A model generated the notes under the pieces. It was not told the origin of the DNA, searched no databases, and was given only the letters and a program-made list of their open reading frames with translations. A DNA stretch of 34,386 bases. It comes from Lachnospiraceae bacterium (GTDB lineage: Bacteria > Bacillota > Clostridia > Lachnospirales > Lachnospiraceae). The stretch lies in assembly GCA_017461865.1 (NCBI GenBank), contig JAFTVQ010000008.1, positions 1-34,386 of the forward strand, written 5' to 3'. The position numbers and the translations under genes were made by a program. Every line of letters begins with the position of its first letter. The first letter of the stretch is position 1. Below are positions 11,638 through 26,008 of this stretch, in pieces.

Positions 11638-11799
11638 ATCTTTTCCTCCTGTCTGCATGCGCCCGGTTGCGCACATCACGGTTGTATCCGTTTCCTGCAC
11701 GGACAAACCGTTTATATCATACTTTAAAATCCGCTTTCGTTCAAGTTCTTTCCTATATTTTATGTGTTTTCCGTCCGCGGCTTTTCCTTTTGTTGCATA

Positions 11800-11828
11800 A
11801 TTATACGTCTATTTTGCATATTATGCAA
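11800..11828 (-). promoter_or_regulatory. Candidate promoter of argC operon
   Basis: Minus-strand -35 TTGCAT and perfect -10 TATAAT with a 17-bp spacer. The -35 element is one arm of the 15-bp palindrome at 11814-11828, so a bound regulator would block RNA polymerase. Confidence 0.65.
11814..11828. promoter_or_regulatory. Candidate ArgR/AhrC operator 1
   Basis: A perfect palindrome TTGCATATTATGCAA. It covers the -35 of the argC promoter. ATGCAT-type half-sites recur several times between 11790 and 11910. Binding by an ArgR-family repressor is inferred from the flanking arginine genes; no argR gene lies in the window. Confidence 0.55.
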
Positions 11829-11890
11829 TATAATTTTTGTTTTATGCACTTTTTTCGCGAATATTCATTGTTTTATGCATTATTTTATGC

Positions 11891-14997: not shown

Positions 14998-15363
14998 CTA
15001 TTTCCCAATCTTCGGTTTAAAGATAAGACTTGCGATATAGCCGAAAATAATCGCCGCGCTGCAGCCTACGGCTCCGGCTTTGAAACCGCCCATGAAAATG
15101 CCGAGAAATCCATTCTCATCCACAGCTTCTTTCACACCTTTCATCAGCACATTTCCGAAGCCGATCAGCGGTACCGAAGCTCCCGCCCCGGCAAACTCCG
15201 CAAACGGTTCATACACCCCGACAAAACTTAACAACGCTCCGAGGCAGACAAGCAGGACCATAATCCTGCCGGGCATCAGCTTCGTTTTTTCCATCAATAT
15301 CTGAACGGCGGCGCAGATCAGTCCGCCCACCCAAAAAGCATTCACATAGCTCGCCAAATCCAT
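14998..15363 (-). CDS. spoVAE: Stage V sporulation protein AE (SpoVAEb-type)
   Basis: A 121-residue integral membrane protein of the SpoVAC/SpoVAEb family, part of the forespore inner-membrane channel that moves dipicolinic acid. The pattern FWVGGLICAAVQILMEKTKLMPGRIMVL, GVYEPFAEFAGAGASVPLIGFG and GGFKAGAVGCSAAI with a C-terminal FKPKIGK is typical. The length (about 120) is normal. AAGGAG lies 5 bp before ATG. It is 5 kb from spoVAD and 6 kb from spoVAC, not in its usual operon place, and is separated from ridA by a terminator. I could not find a convincing sigma-G promoter upstream. Confidence 0.92.
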   Translation of the reverse strand: MDLASYVNAFWVGGLICAAVQILMEKTKLMPGRIMVLLVCLGALLSFVGVYEPFAEFAGAGASVPLIGFGNVLMKGVKEAVDENGFLGIFMGGFKAGAVGCSAAIIFGYIASLIFKPKIGK

Positions 15364-15382
15364 GACAACTCCTTTCTTGCAA

Positions 15383-15419
15383 TAAAAAAGCAGAGAAATT
15401 TCTTTCCCTGCTATTTTTT
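15383..15419. terminator. Bidirectional hairpin terminator between ridA and spoVAE
   Basis: Stem AGCAGAGAAA / TTTCCCTGCT (15389-15398 and 15403-15412), with an A-run on the left and a T-run on the right, so it can work on both strands. Its main job is probably to end the ridA transcript. Confidence 0.78.
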
Positions 15420-15451
15420 ACATTTTTCTGAGAATTATTCTTTTGCGAAAA

Positions 15452-15829
15452 TTATTCTCCGAGATATGCGATGACTTCCACTTCGCAAAGCACGTTTTTC
15501 GGAAGGGTTTTCACTGCCACACAGCTTCTTGCCGGTTTTGCCGTAAAGTACTTCGCATAAATTTCATTGAACGTTGCGAAATCACCCATATCTGCCAAAA
15601 AGCAACCTGTTTTCACTACCTTGTCATAAGATACGCCCGCTGCCTCCAGAAGAGCTCCAATGTTTTTCATTACCTGCTCCGTCTGGGCAACAATGTTATC
15701 TTCTGCTAATTCTCCTGTCTCCGGAATGATCGCGATCTGTCCGGAAGCAAAAAAGAAATCTCCTGCGATAATGCCCTGTGAATAAGGTCCGATTGCTGCC
15801 GGCGCCTTTTCTGTACTGATTGTCTTCAT
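15452..15829 (-). CDS. ridA: RidA family reactive imine/enamine deaminase
   Basis: A 125-residue YjgF/RidA protein that hydrolyses reactive enamine/imine intermediates of PLP enzymes. It begins with the usual APAAIGPYSQGIIAGDFFFASGQ pattern and has the active-site arginine in AKPARSCVAVKTLPK with a C-terminal VEVIAYLG. The length is normal. Ribosome binding site AAGAAGG precedes ATG. It lies after the small gene at 15888-16121 on the same strand and is followed by a strong terminator. Confidence 0.95.
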   Translation of the reverse strand: MKTISTEKAPAAIGPYSQGIIAGDFFFASGQIAIIPETGELAEDNIVAQTEQVMKNIGALLEAAGVSYDKVVKTGCFLADMGDFATFNEIYAKYFTAKPARSCVAVKTLPKNVLCEVEVIAYLGE

Positions 15830-15887
15830 ATTTGTCCTTCTTTCTTTTTATATTTCGTTTCTATCGGCTAATTTTTATCGCCGAAAA

Positions 15888-16121
15888 TCAATCTTCCAAA
15901 AAATTGACGGTCACATAAAATCCTCTCGGATTTTCCGCAATGTCAACCACCGTTCCCTCCCGGCTTTTCAAACGCTCGCGAAAAGCGATATTGCCCGACA
16001 TGGCAAGGGACGGATCAATCGTATAGTAGTAGCTGCTCGGAAGCACACCTTCCGTCACGGACACTTTCTGTCCCACTTCCAGAAGCCCCGGCCGTTCCAT
16101 TTTAAATTCCATCTCACGCAT
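15888..16121 (-). CDS. Small conserved-looking protein overlapping the HD-GYP gene
   Basis: A 77-residue soluble protein with no recognised domain. The C-terminal half reads like a small beta-barrel domain (EGTVVDIAENPRGFYVTVNFLED). The start is uncertain: ATG at 16121 overlaps the end of the HD-GYP gene by 8 bp, and ATG at 16112 lies 1 bp after its stop. Either fits translational coupling. The frame stays open upstream but is an Arg/Gln-rich shadow of the HD-GYP tail repeats. Same strand as ridA, 58 bp before it. Confidence 0.6.
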   Translation of the reverse strand: MREMEFKMERPGLLEVGQKVSVTEGVLPSSYYYTIDPSLAMSGNIAFRERLKSREGTVVDIAENPRGFYVTVNFLED

Positions 16122-18249
16122 CGGCTGCACCTGCCTCCGCTGCCGGTTCTTCCACTGCTGCCGGTTCTTCCACTGCTGCCGGTTCTGCTGTCGCCGCCTC
16201 TTTCGGAAGTTCCTCACGCTCCAGAAGCTGTACGAATATTTCTACGACCGTCGGGTCAAACTGGGTACCTGCACAACGTTTCAATTCCGCGATGGCATCC
16301 GCCTCCGGCATCGCCTTGTGGTACGGTCTGTCATTGACCATAACGTCATGGGAATCGACCGCCGAGATAATACGCGCAATCAACGGAATCTCTTCTCCCT
16401 TGAGGCGGTTCGGATAACCGGTACCGTCCCATTTTTCATGGTGGGAAAGAATACCGTCTGCAATGTCTTCCAGCTCTGCCGAACTCTTCGCAATACGATA
16501 ACCTTTGACCGTATGCTGTTCGATGATGGATCTCTCCTCCGGCGTCAACTTGCCCTGTTTTTTTATAATATCCTGCGGAATCGCTACTTTACCGATATCA
16601 TGAAGCACGGCAAGAAGCTCCAGTCTTCCGATATCCGAATCGGAAATGCCCATCTCCCGTCCGAGTCTTGCAGCCATCTCCCTGGTTCTTTCCACATGGG
16701 CCTCTGTCTGGTAATCACTCTCACAGAGCGTCTGCTTGAGAGAATCCACAAGCGAACTGCTGGCCGACTTATCCTTAAGCATTTTCTTTTTCTGCATGCT
16801 GGCACGTGCATCCTGCAATACCTTCTCAATGCTCTTTTCCGTATCTTCCTTGGTAGCCACACCGAACTCAATGGATACCGGCATATTTTCATAGAAGTCC
16901 TGAATGTCATCTTCGATGGCATCTAAAAGTGTCGCCGCATCTGCATTGTACATGCCCTCCAGCACGATGACGATATCTCCGTTGTCAATCTTGGCACAGA
17001 ATACCTTATCGCCCACACGACGGCGGATGTAGCGGGAAATGTTACGCATTACCGCATCACCGAACGCTGTTCCGTACGCCTCGTTGATGGCATTCATACC
17101 GTCGACGTTACACACAGCTACCGATACCGGCCAGTACTCCGGAATGTTCCACTGCGGAATCTGTGTCATGAAACTCTGTTTATTGTAAAATCCCGTTACC
17201 GAATCAAACAACATGGATTTCTCAAATTCAAAGAAGGTCTGACGCACATCGGTCACATCATGGAACATAAACAGCTTACCGACGAGCTTTTGTTCATCAT
17301 CTTTCATGCAGTTGAGCTGGCACTGGTAAATGCGCGTGATTCCTTTTTCCTGATACACCCAGTCGATTTCCTGGTTGAGATTCGTTCCGTTGAGACCGGA
17401 AAAACCGTTCTCCTTCACGAACTGTTCAATCGTCACGTCATCATTAAAACGGAAATCCGGCATGAGCTCGCGCATCTGCTCACTGTGTGCAACCAGTCTT
17501 CCCTCGTAGTCAAATAAAATGATCGGATCCTTCATATACTGAAGAATCATGTTTCGCGTAATCTCCACCGTCACGCTCGGCAAATAGTTAAATGTATAGA
17601 AATACAAAATCAATCCGACCAACACATAAAGCAGCAAAGACGGATCCACAACAAGCGGAATATATCCCGCAATATAGACCGTGTAAATCACTACCGTCAA
17701 CACCATACCGAAAATCGGACCGTAATACCGGTTCAGATAAACCTTCGGCGCTTCTTTACATTTCACAAAAAGAAGAACAATCGTCGCCACGATCATGATA
17801 ATGTCAAATGTAATATGTACATGGAACGGTATCATCGGAACATACGTCAATATATAGCCATCTGCAAACGGTTCCTTACGATACGAAAGCGCAATCTCCT
17901 TAAACGGGTTCGCCAGCAAAAAGATGGCATCCACAAAACAATAGGCCAGGAATATATATTTGAGCACTCTCGCTGCCTTCCTCTTAGATCCGATATACGT
18001 GAGGATGTAGTCATAGTAAAAATAGATCATCAAATCCATCAACACAAAGCTGCAAGAACATCCGATGGACTTCATCAACATCGCTTCCGAACTGATGTTG
18101 AGCGTATATGCAAGAATCATCAGGAAGTTCATCAACATGGCGATACCGAGCTTTTTGCTGATTGCTGTGTCTTTACGATATGATTTTACCAAAAAGAAAG
18201 CTGAAACTAACGCCGCCAGATAATAACCGGCAATTATGAGTTCTTCCAC
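16114..18249 (-). CDS. Membrane HD-GYP phosphodiesterase with degenerate GGDEF domain
   Basis: A 711-residue sensor. The N-terminal histidine-kinase-type 7TM region (about 1-225) is followed by a PAS-like region (about 225-345), a GGDEF domain (about 350-500) whose signature is NGDIV and so is probably not a cyclase, and a C-terminal HD-GYP domain with HDIGKVAIP and HHEKWDGTGYP, which keeps the metal-binding and GYP residues. It probably degrades cyclic di-GMP in response to a membrane signal. The C-terminus is an Ala/Glu/Pro-rich tail built from an 18-bp repeat. GTG at 18249 is chosen as start because AGGGGG lies 7 bp upstream. An extended -10 (TGTTATACT) lies 33 bp upstream. Confidence 0.9.
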   Translation of the reverse strand: MEELIIAGYYLAALVSAFFLVKSYRKDTAISKKLGIAMLMNFLMILAYTLNISSEAMLMKSIGCSCSFVLMDLMIYFYYDYILTYIGSKRKAARVLKYIFLAYCFVDAIFLLANPFKEIALSYRKEPFADGYILTYVPMIPFHVHITFDIIMIVATIVLLFVKCKEAPKVYLNRYYGPIFGMVLTVVIYTVYIAGYIPLVVDPSLLLYVLVGLILYFYTFNYLPSVTVEITRNMILQYMKDPIILFDYEGRLVAHSEQMRELMPDFRFNDDVTIEQFVKENGFSGLNGTNLNQEIDWVYQEKGITRIYQCQLNCMKDDEQKLVGKLFMFHDVTDVRQTFFEFEKSMLFDSVTGFYNKQSFMTQIPQWNIPEYWPVSVAVCNVDGMNAINEAYGTAFGDAVMRNISRYIRRRVGDKVFCAKIDNGDIVIVLEGMYNADAATLLDAIEDDIQDFYENMPVSIEFGVATKEDTEKSIEKVLQDARASMQKKKMLKDKSASSSLVDSLKQTLCESDYQTEAHVERTREMAARLGREMGISDSDIGRLELLAVLHDIGKVAIPQDIIKKQGKLTPEERSIIEQHTVKGYRIAKSSAELEDIADGILSHHEKWDGTGYPNRLKGEEIPLIARIISAVDSHDVMVNDRPYHKAMPEADAIAELKRCAGTQFDPTVVEIFVQLLEREELPKEAATAEPAAVEEPAAVEEPAAEAGAADA
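16140..16190. repeat. 18-bp tandem repeat in the HD-GYP tail
   Basis: The unit CTGCCGGTTCTTCCACTG occurs at 16140-16157 and 16158-16175, with a partial third copy to 16190. It encodes PAAVEE repeats in the HD-GYP gene. It could vary in copy number by slippage. Confidence 0.85.
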
Positions 18250-18281
18250 GTTCACTCCCCCTATAAACCATATATAAGAAA

Positions 18282-18290
18282 AGTATAACA
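18282..18290 (-). promoter_or_regulatory. Candidate extended -10 promoter for HD-GYP gene
   Basis: Minus-strand TGTTATACT, i.e. TG-n-TATACT. A -35 is weak (TAGCAA at 17 bp). It lies 33 bp upstream of the GTG start. Confidence 0.4.
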
Positions 18291-18340
18291 CAAGCCTTTT
18301 TTATTTGCTATTTATATTTGCCACAAAAAACAAGTTTTTA

Positions 18341-18371
18341 TGCATAAGTTTTTCCTGCCCGTGACATACTA
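18341..18371 (+). promoter_or_regulatory. Candidate sigma-G (forespore) promoter of DUF378 gene
   Basis: TGCATA (18341-18346), an 18-bp spacer, then CATACTA (18365-18371). Both elements and the spacing match the sigma-G consensus (GNATR, 17-18 bp, CATNNTA). The ribosome binding site AGGAGGT starts 10 bp downstream. SpoVA genes lie on both sides. Confidence 0.65.
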
Positions 18372-18393
18372 TGCAAAAAAAGGAGGTAACTTC

Positions 18394-18600
18394 ATGAAAA
18401 CTTTAGATTATATTGCACTGACAATTACCATCATCGGTGCCGTCAACTGGGGCCTCATCGGTTTCTTTGACTGGAACCTGGTGGCTACACTCTTCGGCTC
18501 CATGAGCCTGTTCTCCCGCATTATCTATGCGCTTGTAGGACTTTGCGGAATCTACTTACTGACTCTGTATATGAAACTCGGCGCCATTGATGAGGCGTAA
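18394..18600 (+). CDS. DUF378 family small membrane protein (YuzA-like)
   Basis: A 68-residue protein with two TM helices and the family pattern ITIIGAVNWGLIGFFDWNLVATLFG followed by RIIYALVGLCGIYLL. B. subtilis YuzA is the same family, function unknown. ATG at 18394 follows AGGAGGT by 6 bp; the frame opens further upstream but without a ribosome binding site. The upstream sequence carries a near-perfect sigma-G promoter, so expression in the forespore is likely. A hairpin follows at 18623-18653. Confidence 0.9.
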   Translation: MKTLDYIALTITIIGAVNWGLIGFFDWNLVATLFGSMSLFSRIIYALVGLCGIYLLTLYMKLGAIDEA

Positions 18601-18622
18601 AGAACCGGATTATGGTTGCAGC

Positions 18623-18653
18623 GAGCTCCTTTGCTATGCAGGGGAGCTCTTTT
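18623..18653 (+). terminator. Likely terminator after DUF378 gene
   Basis: GAGCTCC / GGAGCTC stem (7 bp) with a 13-base loop and a short TTTT run. It is moderately convincing and sits 23 bp after the stop codon. Confidence 0.5.
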
Positions 18654-18708
18654 GGCGGTGCTTTTTGGGTCGGCGGTACTTTTGATTCGCGCCGCTTTGG
18701 GGCCGGCG

Positions 18709-18940
18709 GTGGGCATATGCGCATCGCATCACTCTTCTATGCCCAAATTCTTCGCAACGAACTTGTGTTATGTAAACCTTTTGGGTATATAGAGCTATTA
18801 ATCTTTCCCATGCCCAATATTTCGAAAAAAATTGGGCATAGGAGAAAATCTTTCTTGTATATGCCCTTTAGGTTTACATAATGCAGATTTCCTATCTTAT
18901 TATTGGGCATAACAACTTACACTCTTCTACATATGCCCAC
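18709..18940. repeat. 232-bp nested palindrome with four arm pairs in exact register
   Basis: Four perfect inverted-repeat pairs share the same centre, 18824.5. They are GTGGGCATATG / CATATGCCCAC (18709-18719, 18930-18940), TATGCCCAA / TTGGGCATA (18738-18746, 18903-18911), TTATGTAAACC / GGTTTACATAA (18768-18778, 18871-18881) and ATGCCCAAT / ATTGGGCAT (18810-18818, 18831-18839). A further GGGTATATA / TATATGCCC pair with one G-T pair lies between the last two. The linkers have diverged but kept equal length. TATGCCCA recurs on both strands. This is either a decayed MITE-like element or a structured RNA/DNA site. No target-site duplication is obvious. Confidence 0.8.
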
Positions 18941-19055
18941 AGACAAACTTACAGACAAACCCACAGGCGAACCCACAAACGAACTCACAGACAAACCCAC
19001 AGGCGAACCCACAAGCGAACTCACAAACGAACCCACGGGCGAACTCACAAACATC
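18936..19055. repeat. 12-bp tandem repeat, about 10 units
   Basis: Units of consensus CYCACARRCRAA follow one another without spacers: nine full units (18936-19043) and a degenerate tenth. Units 3-5 and 6-8 also show a 36-bp higher-order period. The array begins inside the last arm of the 232-bp palindrome. The plus-strand frame gives an unlikely THRQ/THKR repeat with no ribosome binding site, so it is not annotated as a gene. The rest of the 483-bp gap is non-coding. Confidence 0.88.
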
Positions 19056-19083
19056 TAACCACCCATCCTGATTTTTTGCCTCA

Positions 19084-19848
19084 TTACAAGAAATATTCTT
19101 TTACAGTTCTTTGTACTGTGTCATTGCAGAGCGGATGTTCCTTGGTTTCATAAGTGGCAATAAGATTGATAGTGGGAATGATGCCATGCGATGTGTATAA
19201 CTGTAACTTCGAACAAGCTTTTTGACAATATGACGGATGATCCATCAGCCCGAAGTGCTCCCAGTAATAAAGGCTGCCGGTGCGGGGATGAAGAATTGTA
19301 AAATCAGGATAGATTGTTGTATCGCCGAGCCGCAACGCACATTCATAACGAAACGGAAGCTTTTTCTCGGAAAGTACTGCTTCAATCATAGCTTCGGATT
19401 TTGAGCGCACACATAGACCGGACACTGTTTTGTGAATTTTTTGTTCAGGGTAATTTGGATTGGTTTCATAGAAACAATTCATCCAGTTGAAATGTTTTTG
19501 ATCTGACGGTTGAAAATAAGGCGAAAGAAGTCTCCTGACTTCAGGATGTTGTGAAAGGACAGAATCTGCTTCATCGTGAGCAGGATCATAATGCCTGAAA
19601 AAAGAGTCCAAAGCTGCTTTTTCCTTCTTTAAATTTTTAAGCAAGGAAATCAGATATTTTTTCATTGCAAGTTGTCGGGCGAGATGTTGTTGATCTTTCG
19701 GAATGTAAACGGAACTGTGGCCGTCGCTGCAATACCACTTATAATGCTCACCGTTGCGGGAACAGATAAGTTTTCCTTCCGGAAGTGCGGCGAGTTGCGC
19801 CTCGATCGATGTGATTTCTGCCTCGAGCTGTTGACGCCGGGCATACAT
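19084..19848 (-). CDS. PD-(D/E)XK nuclease-like protein of unknown role
   Basis: A soluble protein of about 254 residues from ATG 19848. A coiled-coil-like N-terminal half (RRQQLEAEITSIEAQLAALPEG, then KKYLISLLKNLKKEK) leads to a C-terminal half resembling the PD-(D/E)XK fold: RSKSEAMIEAVL (Glu), TIYPDFTI (Asp) and YYWEHFG (Glu). The start is unclear. A promoter at 19892-19920 would exclude starts upstream of 19885, and the GGGAGG ribosome binding site is 22 bases from the first downstream ATG, with only ATC or ACG in frame at normal spacing. It is divergent from spoVAD. DNA cleavage is inferred from motifs only. Confidence 0.68.
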   Translation of the reverse strand: MYARRQQLEAEITSIEAQLAALPEGKLICSRNGEHYKWYCSDGHSSVYIPKDQQHLARQLAMKKYLISLLKNLKKEKAALDSFFRHYDPAHDEADSVLSQHPEVRRLLSPYFQPSDQKHFNWMNCFYETNPNYPEQKIHKTVSGLCVRSKSEAMIEAVLSEKKLPFRYECALRLGDTTIYPDFTILHPRTGSLYYWEHFGLMDHPSYCQKACSKLQLYTSHGIIPTINLIATYETKEHPLCNDTVQRTVKEYFL

Positions 19849-19891
19849 TTGATTGTAGATCGTAAAATGACCTCCCTTCTGCTTTTCCACC

Positions 19892-19920
19892 ATGATAATT
19901 ACAATTGCAGGCAACGTCAA
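19892..19920 (-). promoter_or_regulatory. Candidate sigma-A promoter of nuclease-like gene
   Basis: Minus-strand -35 TTGACG (plus 19915-19920) and -10 TATCAT (19892-19897) with a 17-bp spacer. Confidence 0.7.
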
Positions 19921-19944
19921 GTAATTTTTTGAGCGGTTTTCACA

Positions 19945-19951
19945 CATACTA
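19945..19951 (+). promoter_or_regulatory. Possible sigma-G -10 element for spoVAD
   Basis: CATACTA exactly as in the sigma-G consensus, 64 bp before the spoVAD start. The matching -35 is poor (GTAATT at 18 bp), so this is only a candidate. Confidence 0.35.
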
Positions 19952-20015
19952 AGAAGGATGAACGAGACACAAACAAAAAACGATACAGTAACATTTTAAA
20001 ACAGGAGTGCATGAT

Positions 20016-21047
20016 ATGAAAAAAGCAATGTTTGAGACGGGCCGGAGCAGCGTAACGCTTCCGATGCCTGCGTATATCTCCGGCTGCGGATGTATCGCCG
20101 GAAAAAAAGAAAGCGAAGGACCGCTGGCCGGGGCAATCGACTTTCTGTCGTCAGACAACACGTTCGAAACGGACAACTGGGATGCGGCCGAAAGCAAGTT
20201 GCAGAAGGAAGCCGTGCGCATCACTTTGGAAAAAAGCGGTGTCGACAAAAGAGAAATCCGATATTTGTTTGCGGGCGATCTGCTTGGACAATCCATCGCC
20301 AGCTCTTTCGGACTGCTGGACTTTGAGATTCCGCATTTCGGGCTGTACGGCGCCTGCTCTACCTGCGGCGAGTCGCTGAGTCTCGGCGCCATGACCGTCG
20401 GAACCGGACTTGCGTCCAAAGTCATGTGCGTGACATCCTCACACTTTGCCAGCGCCGAAAAAGAATTCCGTTTTCCGCTGGAGTACGGGGCGCAGAGACC
20501 GGTTTCTTCCACATGGACCGTAACCGGAAGCGGCGCCTTTTTGCTGACGGGAGATGAGGACGGTAAAACCCTGGCCAAAATTTCGGAAATCACCACGGGC
20601 CGAATCATTGACCTGGGTGTCAAGGACAGCCTGAATATGGGATGTGCCATGGCTCCGGCCGCAGCCGACACCATCCGCCAGCACTTGGAGGACTTCGGGC
20701 GCAAACCGGCCGACTACGACGCCATCATCACCGGAGATTTGGGCCAAATAGGAAGTCAGGCGCTCATCAAACTGCTTCTGGACAAAGACATTGACATCAC
20801 AGACAAACATTTAGACTGCGGATTGATTATTTTTGATATTGAGCAACAGGATGTGGGATCCGGCGGGTCCGGATGCGGTTGCGCGGCGGTAACTTTGGCC
20901 TCCCACATCCTTCCGCGAATTAAGAGCGGCGAGTGGAACCGTGTGCTCTTCCTGCCAACCGGCGCGCTTCTGAGCAAAACAAGTTTCAACGAAGGACAGG
21001 CGGTGCCGGGCATCGCCCACGCCGTGGTGCTGGAACATGTGGGATAA
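20016..21047 (+). CDS. spoVAD: Stage V sporulation protein AD
   Basis: A 343-residue thiolase-fold protein that binds dipicolinic acid in the SpoVA channel complex. It has VTLPMPAYISGCGCIAGKKESEGPLA near the start, YGACSTCGESLSLGAMTV in the middle and a C-terminal LFLPTGALLSKTSFNEGQAVPGIAHAVVLE. Length and motifs are normal for SpoVAD. ATG at 20016 follows AGGAG by 8 bp. It lies on the plus strand, convergent with spoVAC (stops 194 bp apart). In most Firmicutes spoVAC, AD and AE are adjacent and co-directional, so this gene has been moved or inverted. Confidence 0.95.
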   Translation: MKKAMFETGRSSVTLPMPAYISGCGCIAGKKESEGPLAGAIDFLSSDNTFETDNWDAAESKLQKEAVRITLEKSGVDKREIRYLFAGDLLGQSIASSFGLLDFEIPHFGLYGACSTCGESLSLGAMTVGTGLASKVMCVTSSHFASAEKEFRFPLEYGAQRPVSSTWTVTGSGAFLLTGDEDGKTLAKISEITTGRIIDLGVKDSLNMGCAMAPAAADTIRQHLEDFGRKPADYDAIITGDLGQIGSQALIKLLLDKDIDITDKHLDCGLIIFDIEQQDVGSGGSGCGCAAVTLASHILPRIKSGEWNRVLFLPTGALLSKTSFNEGQAVPGIAHAVVLEHVG

Positions 21048-21071
21048 ATAAGCAGTAGAAATGCAAGCAGA

Positions 21072-21110
21072 AACCCGTCCCTAACGAAATGTTAGGGGCG
21101 GGTTATTATA
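21072..21110 (+). terminator. Terminator-like hairpin after spoVAD
   Basis: A 14-bp stem AACCCGTCCCTAAC / GTTAGGGGCGGGTT with one G-T pair and loop GAAAT, followed by TTATTATA. The T-run is weak but the stem is strong. Confidence 0.65.
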
Positions 21111-21178
21111 CCGTTATGCACCGACACAATTTCAAGACAATATAGCTTTACATTTTATCTGTTCAACTCTTCTTGAAT

Positions 21179-21234
21179 CCATATGTTCACACCCTTTTAC
21201 TGCTATATAAAAATACCGGCACCGGAACATATGG
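21179..21234. repeat. Inverted repeat just after spoVAC
   Basis: Perfect 10-bp arms CCATATGTTC and GAACATATGG separated by 36 bp, 7 bp from the spoVAC stop. There is no T-run. It could be a transcript end structure or a scar of the rearrangement that flipped spoVAD. Confidence 0.6.
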
Positions 21235-21241
21235 TTGTCAA

Positions 21242-21820
21242 TCATTGTATCACTTTAAGTAACCAGTACAACAACCCCAGCGCCCAGCTGGTCAGGATTC
21301 CGTAGAGAATGACCGGGCCGGCAATGGTGAAGATTTTGACACCGATACCGAACACCTGCCCTTCCGGTTTATATTCGATGGCGGGCGAAGCAACCGAGTT
21401 GGCAAATCCCGTAATAGGAACAAGCGCTCCCGCCCCGGCCCAGGCAGCAAGATACTGATACAGACTGAGCCCGGTCAGAAGAACACTGAACAGGACAAGA
21501 AGAAGGGAACACCATGAGCCGGACGTCTCCTTATCCAGACCGATGCTCTCACAATAGTTGAGGATCATCTGCCCGAGCACACAGAACAGACCTCCGACAA
21601 AAAAAGCCTTGAGCATCTGCCACCAAAGATTTTTGGTCGGCGTCACCTGTTTGATGTACTCGTTGTATTTCTGCTTCTCCAGGTCCTTTTCGTCCTGCCT
21701 CTGCTGGTCCGCCTGCGCGGAAAGAACCGGGTCCGGGGCCGTTGTCCCGTCCTGCACTCCGCTGTTTTCCTGAATATCTTCCGCCGCCTGCGGACTGATT
21801 CTGATCTGTTCCTCATTCAT
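21242..21820 (-). CDS. spoVAC: Stage V sporulation protein AC
   Basis: A 192-residue integral membrane protein. The family core (about 50-190) begins QVTPTKNLWWQMLKAFFVGGLFCVLGQ and includes AWAGAGALVPITGFANSVASPAIEYK. About 45 polar residues precede the core (Gln/Asp/Glu-rich), longer than usual for SpoVAC. SpoVAC is thought to act as a mechanosensitive part of the dipicolinate channel. AAGGAAGG precedes ATG. It is last in the spoVAA-AB-AC minus-strand run, 22 bp after spoVAB. Confidence 0.93.
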   Translation of the reverse strand: MNEEQIRISPQAAEDIQENSGVQDGTTAPDPVLSAQADQQRQDEKDLEKQKYNEYIKQVTPTKNLWWQMLKAFFVGGLFCVLGQMILNYCESIGLDKETSGSWCSLLLVLFSVLLTGLSLYQYLAAWAGAGALVPITGFANSVASPAIEYKPEGQVFGIGVKIFTIAGPVILYGILTSWALGLLYWLLKVIQ

Positions 21821-21842
21821 GTGTTTTTCCTTCCTTTCTGCG

Positions 21843-22322
21843 TTACCACATAAACACGCCTTCCATGTAATAAAAAAGAGAACCGACTAATTTACCTACT
21901 GCTAACCCTGCAATGACGAGGCCGACACCGCGCTTCAACTTCATCCGGTGCGCCATAATCGGAATCGCATCCAGCAATTCTGCAATAGAAACCGCCAGTG
22001 TTCCGACATAGATACCGACAAACAATCCGATTACGGCAAGCAACCCCTTCTGCCACACAACCGGGATCCCGATGACCGGCAGCGAATAGTTAGCTTCAAG
22101 CAACTTTTCAACAAATAAACTAAACAGGTTTCCGAGAAAGCAACCTGAAATAATCATATTTTCATACGTCATAATGTGATCGGCACTGTCCGTATGCTCG
22201 GCAAAGCGCGGTACAAGTCCCACCGCCGTAAACACCGTAAAAACACCGCTCGCCACGGACATTCCCGCGCACAATCCAAGCACGGTCAAAACCAACTGCT
22301 CCGCCAACTGTTCCACCCACAT
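21843..22322 (-). CDS. spoVAB: Stage V sporulation protein AB
   Basis: A 159-residue membrane protein with about four to five TM segments. The pattern AGMSVASGVFTVFTAVGLVPRFAEHT and the C-terminal RMKLKRGVGLVIAGLAVGKLVGSLFYY are those of SpoVAB. AAAGGAG precedes ATG by 7 bp. It is 14 bp after spoVAA and 22 bp before spoVAC, on the same strand, so the three form one operon. Its exact role in dipicolinic acid transport is not established in general. Confidence 0.92.
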   Translation of the reverse strand: MWVEQLAEQLVLTVLGLCAGMSVASGVFTVFTAVGLVPRFAEHTDSADHIMTYENMIISGCFLGNLFSLFVEKLLEANYSLPVIGIPVVWQKGLLAVIGLFVGIYVGTLAVSIAELLDAIPIMAHRMKLKRGVGLVIAGLAVGKLVGSLFYYMEGVFMW

Positions 22323-22336
22323 AACCTGCTCCTTTG

Positions 22337-22966
22337 CTACTGCACATCCACCTTGGACCCCTCCCGGTCACGGCGCTTAATGATGGCTTCATCCATGTCG
22401 CGTTCATAATTTCGCATAGAAACTTCGATCGGGGTCGGCTCGGACGTAATCTTCTTTTTGCCCACGTGATTGTAAAAGACAAGAATTCCGATCAGCAGCC
22501 CTAAGCTGTAACTAACTTCGAGAAGCGTGAAGCCGCCGGAAGAATTGCCCGTGACAAACTCGTAAAACTGACTGAATATATTGGTAATGGAAATATCATT
22601 GTGAAATGCCATAATCGAAAAGGCGCCGCCGAAGAGACAAATAAGACTTACAACAAGCACCTTCAGCTTTCCGAGCAGCGTGTCAAATCCTTTTTGTGCT
22701 GCGGAATCTTTCCACTCGACGATACAATCGGACTCCCCATGGGGGATGACCAGACAATCCGGAAACTTTGCCTGCACCGACGCGGTAAGCCAAAGCAAAC
22801 TGATGACCTGCTTTTCCTTCTTTTCAAATTTGTACAAAACAATATTTTTGACCCCGGCACATACAGCCGGATCCGCCGCATAGACAGACGCCACATCGCT
22901 GATCCGCACAGATTTTTCCCGGACCTGCACGCTGTCTTCCATTTCTATATACACAAAATTTTTCAA
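22337..22966 (-). CDS. spoVAA: Stage V sporulation protein AA
   Basis: A 209-residue protein with a soluble N-terminal domain (1-90; YIEMEDSVQVREKSVRISDVASVYA) and two C-terminal TM segments (about 100-120 and 150-170), the SpoVAA architecture. The start is TTG, with AAGGAAG 9 bp upstream; no better ATG exists near the conserved N-terminus. It is the first gene of the spoVAA-AB-AC operon. Upstream is a TGCATA/CAATATA pair resembling sigma-G elements, but the 20-bp spacer (22995-23014) is longer than usual, so promoter assignment is weak. Confidence 0.9.
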   Translation of the reverse strand: MKNFVYIEMEDSVQVREKSVRISDVASVYAADPAVCAGVKNIVLYKFEKKEKQVISLLWLTASVQAKFPDCLVIPHGESDCIVEWKDSAAQKGFDTLLGKLKVLVVSLICLFGGAFSIMAFHNDISITNIFSQFYEFVTGNSSGGFTLLEVSYSLGLLIGILVFYNHVGKKKITSEPTPIEVSMRNYERDMDEAIIKRRDREGSKVDVQ

Positions 22967-24703: not shown

Positions 24704-25903
24704 TCAGGCTCCCGCAACTCTTCGCATTTCATCTTTCGCATCCTCAAAGTTCACATGGGTATATGTGTTCAAAGTAACACTTATATCTGAGTGCCCCATA
24801 ATATACTGTAGAGTCTTGGGATTCATGCCGGATTTTGCCATATTCGAACAAAACGTATGACGACACACATGCGGTGTTATCTTAGGCATCTGAATCTTAT
24901 ATATACTATTATATTTATCTCTGATGTGCTGCATATACTTTTCCCAATGCAAAGCCACCATTGGTCTGTCATTTTTATCCAAGAACAAAAATCCTGTATA
25001 TCCTTGAATCATAGGTTCTACTGTAGGTCGTGGACGATTAGCAATTATTCTTCTAAAACATGCTGCCACTTCTTCAGTCATTGGAACAAACCGCACACCA
25101 CTTTCTGTTTTCGGTTCTTCAATAGAATATTCCATATTACGCTTTCTCTGTAACTGATGATCCACCCTAATCTTCATATCATTAAATTGAATATCAGAAA
25201 TAGTAAGTCCACAAAACTCCGAAATACGAAGCCCCGTATTGAACAGAATATAAATACCATCATAGTATTTGCAAAAATGCTTATCTTCCTTTATGAATTT
25301 TAAGAAATCCCGCTCCTGCTTTTTTGTAACAGCTTCTCTTGTTACACTGTCATTTACAACTACTGAAGCGAGTTCAAATCCAAACGGATTCTTACGAATC
25401 AAATCATCGTCTACCGCCATCTGAAAAGCCGGACGTACAACACCTCTGATTGAATGAATTGAGCTATAGCCTCTGCCATCGACTTTTTGCAATTTAATCA
25501 ACCATGCCTTGGCATCGCTAAGTTTAACCTTATCAATTCTTTTTCTTCCAAACTCTTCTTTCTTAATAATATTGACAACAAATTTGTAATTTGCCGCTGT
25601 ATTATGTCTCACGCCGGTTTTCAATGAAATATACTTTTTAACCAATTCCAGTACAGTCATATTCCCACCGTTTGGAGTAATCTCATCAAACAAATCTCTT
25701 TCAATTTGTTTTTCTTTCTCTCTCAGCGATAAATCTCTTAACTTTCCTTTTGGGGTTGGATCATTTTTTTCTAATCTCCAACTGTAAACATCTCTACTAA
25801 CACCATCTTTGTCAATATATTTATAACGATATCTTCCGTCTGGTCGTTGGGACTCTCCATTACGAAGAATACGATTTTTATTATCTCTACGCTTCTCGCT
25901 CAT
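24704..25903 (-). CDS. Tyrosine recombinase (Tn916-type integrase)
   Basis: A 399-residue site-specific integrase. The N-terminal arm-binding domain (about 1-60; RRDNKNRILRNGESQRPDGRYRYKY) is followed by a core-binding domain (about 80-180) and the catalytic domain with Arg226 (NTGLRISEF), His345-Arg348 (PHVCRH), His371 (MGHSD) and nucleophile Tyr381 (NTYTHV). All catalytic residues are present. ATG at 25903 is chosen because AAAGGAG lies just upstream; the frame extends 20 codons further without a ribosome binding site. Its terminator and tandem repeats lie next to the element end. Xis is 105 bp upstream. Confidence 0.95.
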   Translation of the reverse strand: MSEKRRDNKNRILRNGESQRPDGRYRYKYIDKDGVSRDVYSWRLEKNDPTPKGKLRDLSLREKEKQIERDLFDEITPNGGNMTVLELVKKYISLKTGVRHNTAANYKFVVNIIKKEEFGRKRIDKVKLSDAKAWLIKLQKVDGRGYSSIHSIRGVVRPAFQMAVDDDLIRKNPFGFELASVVVNDSVTREAVTKKQERDFLKFIKEDKHFCKYYDGIYILFNTGLRISEFCGLTISDIQFNDMKIRVDHQLQRKRNMEYSIEEPKTESGVRFVPMTEEVAACFRRIIANRPRPTVEPMIQGYTGFLFLDKNDRPMVALHWEKYMQHIRDKYNSIYKIQMPKITPHVCRHTFCSNMAKSGMNPKTLQYIMGHSDISVTLNTYTHVNFEDAKDEMRRVAGA

Positions 25904-26008
25904 ATTATTCTCTCCTTTCATCAAATAGAAAGAGAGCCCAAACTCATGGTTACATTGTACCACAAATGTGACCCTCTTTCCATATAGTTTTTGAAATTAT
26001 TAAAAATT

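Follow-up and report, generated by a model that had tools for sequence, protein, structure and literature searches.

The window, a 34,386-nt stretch of contig JAFTVQ010000008.1 from a Lachnospiraceae bacterium, carries a short gene of the DUF378 family that is preceded by a forespore-type promoter and a Shine-Dalgarno motif and is flanked on both sides by spoVA genes (Table 1). The −35 and −10 elements are 18 bp apart, and 9 bp separate the −10 element from the AGGAGGT motif. A search for this exact two-part pattern gave a single site in the window and no site in 100 dinucleotide shuffles. The gene begins with the ATG at 18394 and ends with the stop codon at 18598–18600. A longer in-frame reading frame opens at ATG 18340, inside the promoter; ATG 18394 is the preferred start because a ribosome-binding site precedes this codon only. 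No match to a sigma-70-type promoter was found in the region. The arrangement described in the original prediction, TGCATA-18-CATACTA ahead of AGGAGGT and a DUF378 gene, was thus confirmed: it is unique in the window and, with the sigma-G matrix described below, scores above every shuffled control.

Table 1. Features of the DUF378 locus and the surrounding spoVA region (positions in the window)
Feature	Position	Strand	Basis
spoVAE	14998..15363	−	TIGR02839 (E 2e-37), PF03862
Divergent 7TM + GGDEF + HD-GYP gene, start codon at about 18251	16114..18251	−	Pfam
−35 element TGCATA of the forespore (sigma-G-type) promoter	18341..18346	+	Sequence; kept in genus; family consensus TGNATA
−10 element CATACTA	18365..18371	+	3′-terminal A is the sigma-G mark; T at the sigma-F position, 18362
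Shine-Dalgarno motif AGGAGGT	18381..18387	+	Sequence
DUF378 (PF04070, YuzA-like) gene, 68 aa, two predicted transmembrane helices	18394..18600	+	Pfam (E 6e-27), AlphaFold2
spoVAD	20007..21047	+	Pfam PF07451 (E 2e-134)
spoVAC, spoVAB, spoVAA	21242..22966	−	Profile matches

The motif alone is no proof of a promoter; the weight of the argument rests on its conservation and on matrices that were trained independently. The degenerate pattern TGHATA-17/18-CATAHTA has 4 sites in the 2.2-Mb genome, compared with 3 for the reversed control pattern; since this is the chance level, conservation was tested, and the use of the exact pattern as a genome-wide scan for the sigma-G regulon was rejected, also at chance level. 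Two of the four matches are overlapping inverted sites that resemble an arginine operator and precede argG. These elements, TGCATAAT..GCATA(A/T)TA at 11794–11848, lie between argG and the semialdehyde dehydrogenase gene; on either strand they could be mistaken for sigma-G sites, but they look like an arginine-repressor operator.

Loci containing DUF378, taken from 82 of 116 relatives and supplemented by a scan of GTDB genomes, yielded 148 non-redundant upstream regions. Promoters were detected by four-fold cross-validation, with the 95% threshold of shuffled sequence and of the upstream regions of neighbouring genes. A forespore-type promoter was found in 106 of the 148 regions, a fraction that overstates the number of independent events because the loci are mutually related, compared with 7.4 expected from shuffles; the same was found against the upstream regions of neighbouring genes. 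The cross-validated motif is TGNATA, 16–17 bp, NNATACTA. In the alignment of three members of the genus, in which the −35 reads TGCATA, TGCATA and TGAATA, the −35 and −10 elements are kept and the spacer has diverged, the tolerated changes being TGCATA to TGAATA and GTGACATACTA to GTGGAATACTA. With the independent matrices, the promoter was detected in 35 of 47 members of the family of the window, but in only 8 of 35 members of the other families of the order. Conservation upstream of the DUF378 genes of relatives, which the original prediction named as a check, is therefore found mainly within the family, and the promoter is mostly lost in the other families of the order.

To distinguish sigma-F from sigma-G, reference matrices were built from the same genomes with spoIIR (sigma-F), spoVT (taken here as sigma-G, although spoVT of C. 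difficile has been proposed to be dual) and the SASP genes (sigma-G). The SASP promoters were dropped as the sole sigma-G reference in favour of spoVT and spoIIR, which are better references; SASP promoters share extra features (a −35 AGTGTA and an extended CATATACTA), and for this reason the SASP matrix scored the DUF378 promoters only moderately. With the sigma-G matrix, trained only on the spoVT promoters of relatives, the window promoter scored 17.4, above all 2,960 shuffles, compared with 7.7 (p = 0.07) with the sigma-F (spoIIR) matrix. In C. difficile, promoters of sigma-F are distinguished by a G 5′ of the −10 element and those of sigma-G by an A at the 3′ end of this element, and dual promoters have both (PMC3789822). 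The window promoter has the sigma-G features described there (TGNATA and CATACTA, 17–18 bp apart, with the 3′ A; PMC3789822) and carries the sigma-G mark only: where sigma-F promoters have a G, usually GG, 5′ of the −10, it reads TGACATACTA, with T at the discriminating position. Within a range that extends from sigma-F to sigma-G, the window promoter thus likely belongs at the sigma-G end.

The proposal of a sigma-G promoter is, accordingly, the best reading for the window copy, but does not extend to most of its relatives, which are marked as dual. Among 110 DUF378 promoters, 62 are of the dual type, 42, like that of the window, carry the sigma-G mark only, and 5 the sigma-F mark only, so that the sigma-F mark is present in 67 of the 110. 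The layout of −35 and −10 is similar to that of the sigma-G and dual promoters of Clostridia such as C. difficile spoVT (PMC3789822), and the two discriminating positions are the same. In the family matrix, G reaches 67% at both of the two positions 5′ of the −10, a feature shared with spoIIR and absent from spoVT, and the GG-type sequence is GGCAATACTA. It is possible, if somewhat unlikely, that sigma-F, the factor of the early forespore, is the main one for this gene, or that the gene is truly dual, and that the window copy resembles a sigma-G promoter only through the loss of one G. Besides the prevalence of both marks and the G-rich family matrix, this alternative can draw on the one of the two Gs that is still present in the window and on the precedent of C. 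difficile spoVT, which bears both marks and has been proposed as a direct target of both sigma factors (PMC3789822). However, the window promoter fits the sigma-G matrix far better than the sigma-F matrix, and the two nearest members of the genus also lack G at the sigma-F position. Sigma-G is therefore the preferred assignment.

The distribution of the gene follows sporulation closely. DUF378 is present in 82 of the 94 relatives with full-length SigG and in none of the 22 without SigG (116 relatives; Fisher p 2e-15; SigG grouping as read from tables, with one borderline genome, G045, in which the SigG match is interrupted, counted as positive). For SpoIVA, the corresponding numbers are 78 of 90 positive and 4 of 26 negative relatives, and the latter four genomes have SigG matches. 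In a sample of 299 genomes of the phylum, DUF378 occurs in 87 of 257 genomes with SpoIVA, but in 1 of 42 without it. The usual neighbour of DUF378, a gene for a P-loop protein, served as a control: 16 of the 22 genomes without SigG retain it, and because this neighbour persists, the loss of DUF378 in this order is specific to the loss of sporulation. Outside the family of the window, the promoter mostly goes undetected, yet DUF378 still tracks SigG. The gene is absent from 12 SigG-positive relatives, some of which are incomplete genomes, and is therefore not essential for sporulation. Expression in the forespore, as predicted originally, is well supported by the conservation of the promoter together with the phyletic coupling to SigG, two lines of evidence drawn from genome sequences.

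The conserved P-loop protein (139 aa) lies beside DUF378 in 54 loci, for example L050, and is present in 86 of the 116 relatives regardless of sporulation; it matches no Pfam family, and none of NCBIfam significantly. It was rejected as a partner of DUF378 on account of its retention in the genomes without SigG. As a separate observation, Spore_II_R (PF09551) had no match in any of the four genomes of the genus (G000–G003), all of which have SigG, SpoIVA and SpoVT, and several other members of the family also lack a match; in the incomplete genomes of the genus, divergence or gaps are possible reasons.

The encoded protein matches PF04070 with 93.8 bits (cut-off 25) over profile positions 1–59 of 60 and has in helix 1 the conserved GAxNWGLIG of the family. 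An AlphaFold2 model based on 31 sequences (mean pLDDT 83, pTM 0.59) contains two helices, 2–25 and 39–67, with a short helix (29–34) between them, and a membrane hairpin is thus well supported by prediction. The conserved positions hold small or aromatic residues (G15, N18, W19, G20, G23, R42, Y45, G49 and G52), and six of them, G15, W19, G20, Y45, G49 and G52, are invariant in the 31 sequences; such residues would suit tight packing of helices. No solved relative was found by sequence in the PDB, and none that was convincing by fold (best E 6). A role in the inner membrane of the spore appears plausible given the two predicted transmembrane helices.

A link between this family and sporulation is already on record and is therefore not new: a published table of homologues of known sporulation genes includes the yuzA homologue of C. 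perfringens, CPR_1626, which belongs to a set induced 3–5 log2 during sporulation (PMC4433262). YuzA of B. subtilis and CPR_1626 belong, by name, to the same DUF378/YuzA family as the window gene and are listed among sporulation genes. B. subtilis yuzA differs, in a comparison by name and report, in that it has been reported in the SigB general-stress regulon (PMC10948285). Furthermore, the archaeon Methanosarcina acetivorans, which does not sporulate, has a DUF378 protein. Spore specificity is therefore not a property of the whole family, and the restriction to spore formers holds within the order only. These homologues raise an alternative, namely that DUF378 is a general membrane-stress protein that is also made in vegetative cells, with sporulation as only one occasion for its synthesis. 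We consider this unlikely for the window gene: in the order, DUF378, unlike its neighbour, never occurs without SigG, and the region has no sigma-70-type promoter match. What appears new here is the family-wide range of sigma-F/sigma-G promoters, the control for co-loss and the relocation described below, for which a limited literature search revealed no earlier report.

The position between spoVA genes had been taken as a clue to function, and this argument did not survive. The spoVA genes do lie on both sides of DUF378 in the window, but they are found beside it in only 3 loci, all from the genus, among 82, in a test limited by the roughly 30 of these loci that hold only 3 kb. The recurrent context of DUF378 is instead a block on the opposite strand, in which DUF378 lies between minD-minE-rodA-mgsA-dacF-like-P-loop and hlyD-like-yggS-sepF; 53 of the 148 loci have both parts. 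In the genome of the window, this division/cell-wall block is intact on another contig (C203), with a gap of 187 bp between the P-loop and hlyD genes and no DUF378. The simplest reading would be that, in this genus, DUF378 was relocated from the block to the neighbourhood of spoVA, or disappeared from the one and was gained in the other. Because the spoVA linkage is confined to the genus and the common context is another, the positional argument falls; the place beside spoVA is a local accident that carries little meaning.

It is accordingly quite improbable that DUF378 works with the SpoVA dipicolinate channel. The spoVA genes lie within 5 kb on either side and have weaker forespore-type sites of their own: a sigma-G-like site, ACACATACTA, upstream of spoVAD (11.3 with the spoVT-trained matrix; 99th percentile of the null 11.4) and a site before spoVAA (10.8 with the sigma-G and 9.6 with the sigma-F matrix). 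Against such a partnership stand the linkage in a single genus, the usual position of DUF378 in a block that is intact without it here, and the unrelated genes that intervene, that is, the HD-GYP/GGDEF gene, the upstream region of which is separately conserved in the genus alignment, and a 287-aa reading frame. The reading least able to stand, that the promoter match is an effect of chance or of A+T composition, could appeal to the genome-wide count of the degenerate pattern, but is very improbable indeed given the cross-validated enrichment over both backgrounds, the scores of the independent matrices and the −35 and −10 footprint in the genus.

The region has several other features. The spoVA genes (14998–22966) are scattered and partly convergent, with spoVAD opposing spoVAA-AB-AC and spoVAE 5 kb away, and in a genus mate (L031) the segment comprising spoVAD and the 287-aa reading frame is inverted. 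The 287-aa protein (19084–19947, minus strand) has no Pfam or NCBIfam match; by eye, its C-terminal half (YPDFTILHP..YYWEHFG) resembles a PD-(D/E)XK nuclease core. Downstream of DUF378, a tandem array with a 12-bp unit (36-bp higher-order), CCCACAGGCGAA, occupies 18936–19052 within a 90-aa reading frame (18881–19153). Several inverted copies of ATGCCCAA/TTGGGCAT lie at 18706–18940, among them 55-nt arms (18768–18822 and 18827–18881, 73% complementary), and may represent a small mobile or regulatory element. A Tn916-type integrase gene (24704–25963, minus strand) suggests that an element has integrated beside the spoVA region.

Taken together, the computed evidence supports three points: the promoter itself, conservation within the family and co-loss with sporulation. 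In the mechanism that we propose, DUF378 would be a single-gene transcription unit that RNA polymerase with sigma-G begins to transcribe in the forespore after engulfment; sigma-F may already give some transcription before that. The 68-residue helical hairpin would insert into the forespore membrane, the future inner membrane of the spore, would pack there against further copies of itself or other proteins of that membrane, and may contribute to a property of the spore, for example, membrane state, dormancy or germination; this last, biochemical step is speculative. We assign this model a probability of roughly 0.78. Comparable small proteins of the forespore inner membrane, likewise of unknown role, are encoded in the vicinity of spoVA, for example the 2Duf proteins. 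Like these, the DUF378 product is small, integral to the membrane and expected in that of the forespore; it differs in belonging to another Pfam family (PF04070) and in having no general linkage to spoVA.

More tentatively, and short of an even chance, DUF378 may be a dedicated component of the forespore inner membrane in Lachnospiraceae spores, the promoter of which slides between sigma-F and sigma-G by lineage and which kept its control upon relocation. If so, the same small hairpin would be made before engulfment in some species and after it in others. With the promoter set assembled here, which comprises 148 loci and, as references, spoIIR and spoVT of the same genomes, the choice between sigma-F and sigma-G can be followed across gut spore formers. 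The locus also illustrates that a suggestive neighbourhood, such as that of spoVA, can be a recent accident, and a domain of unknown function becomes a testable forespore membrane protein.
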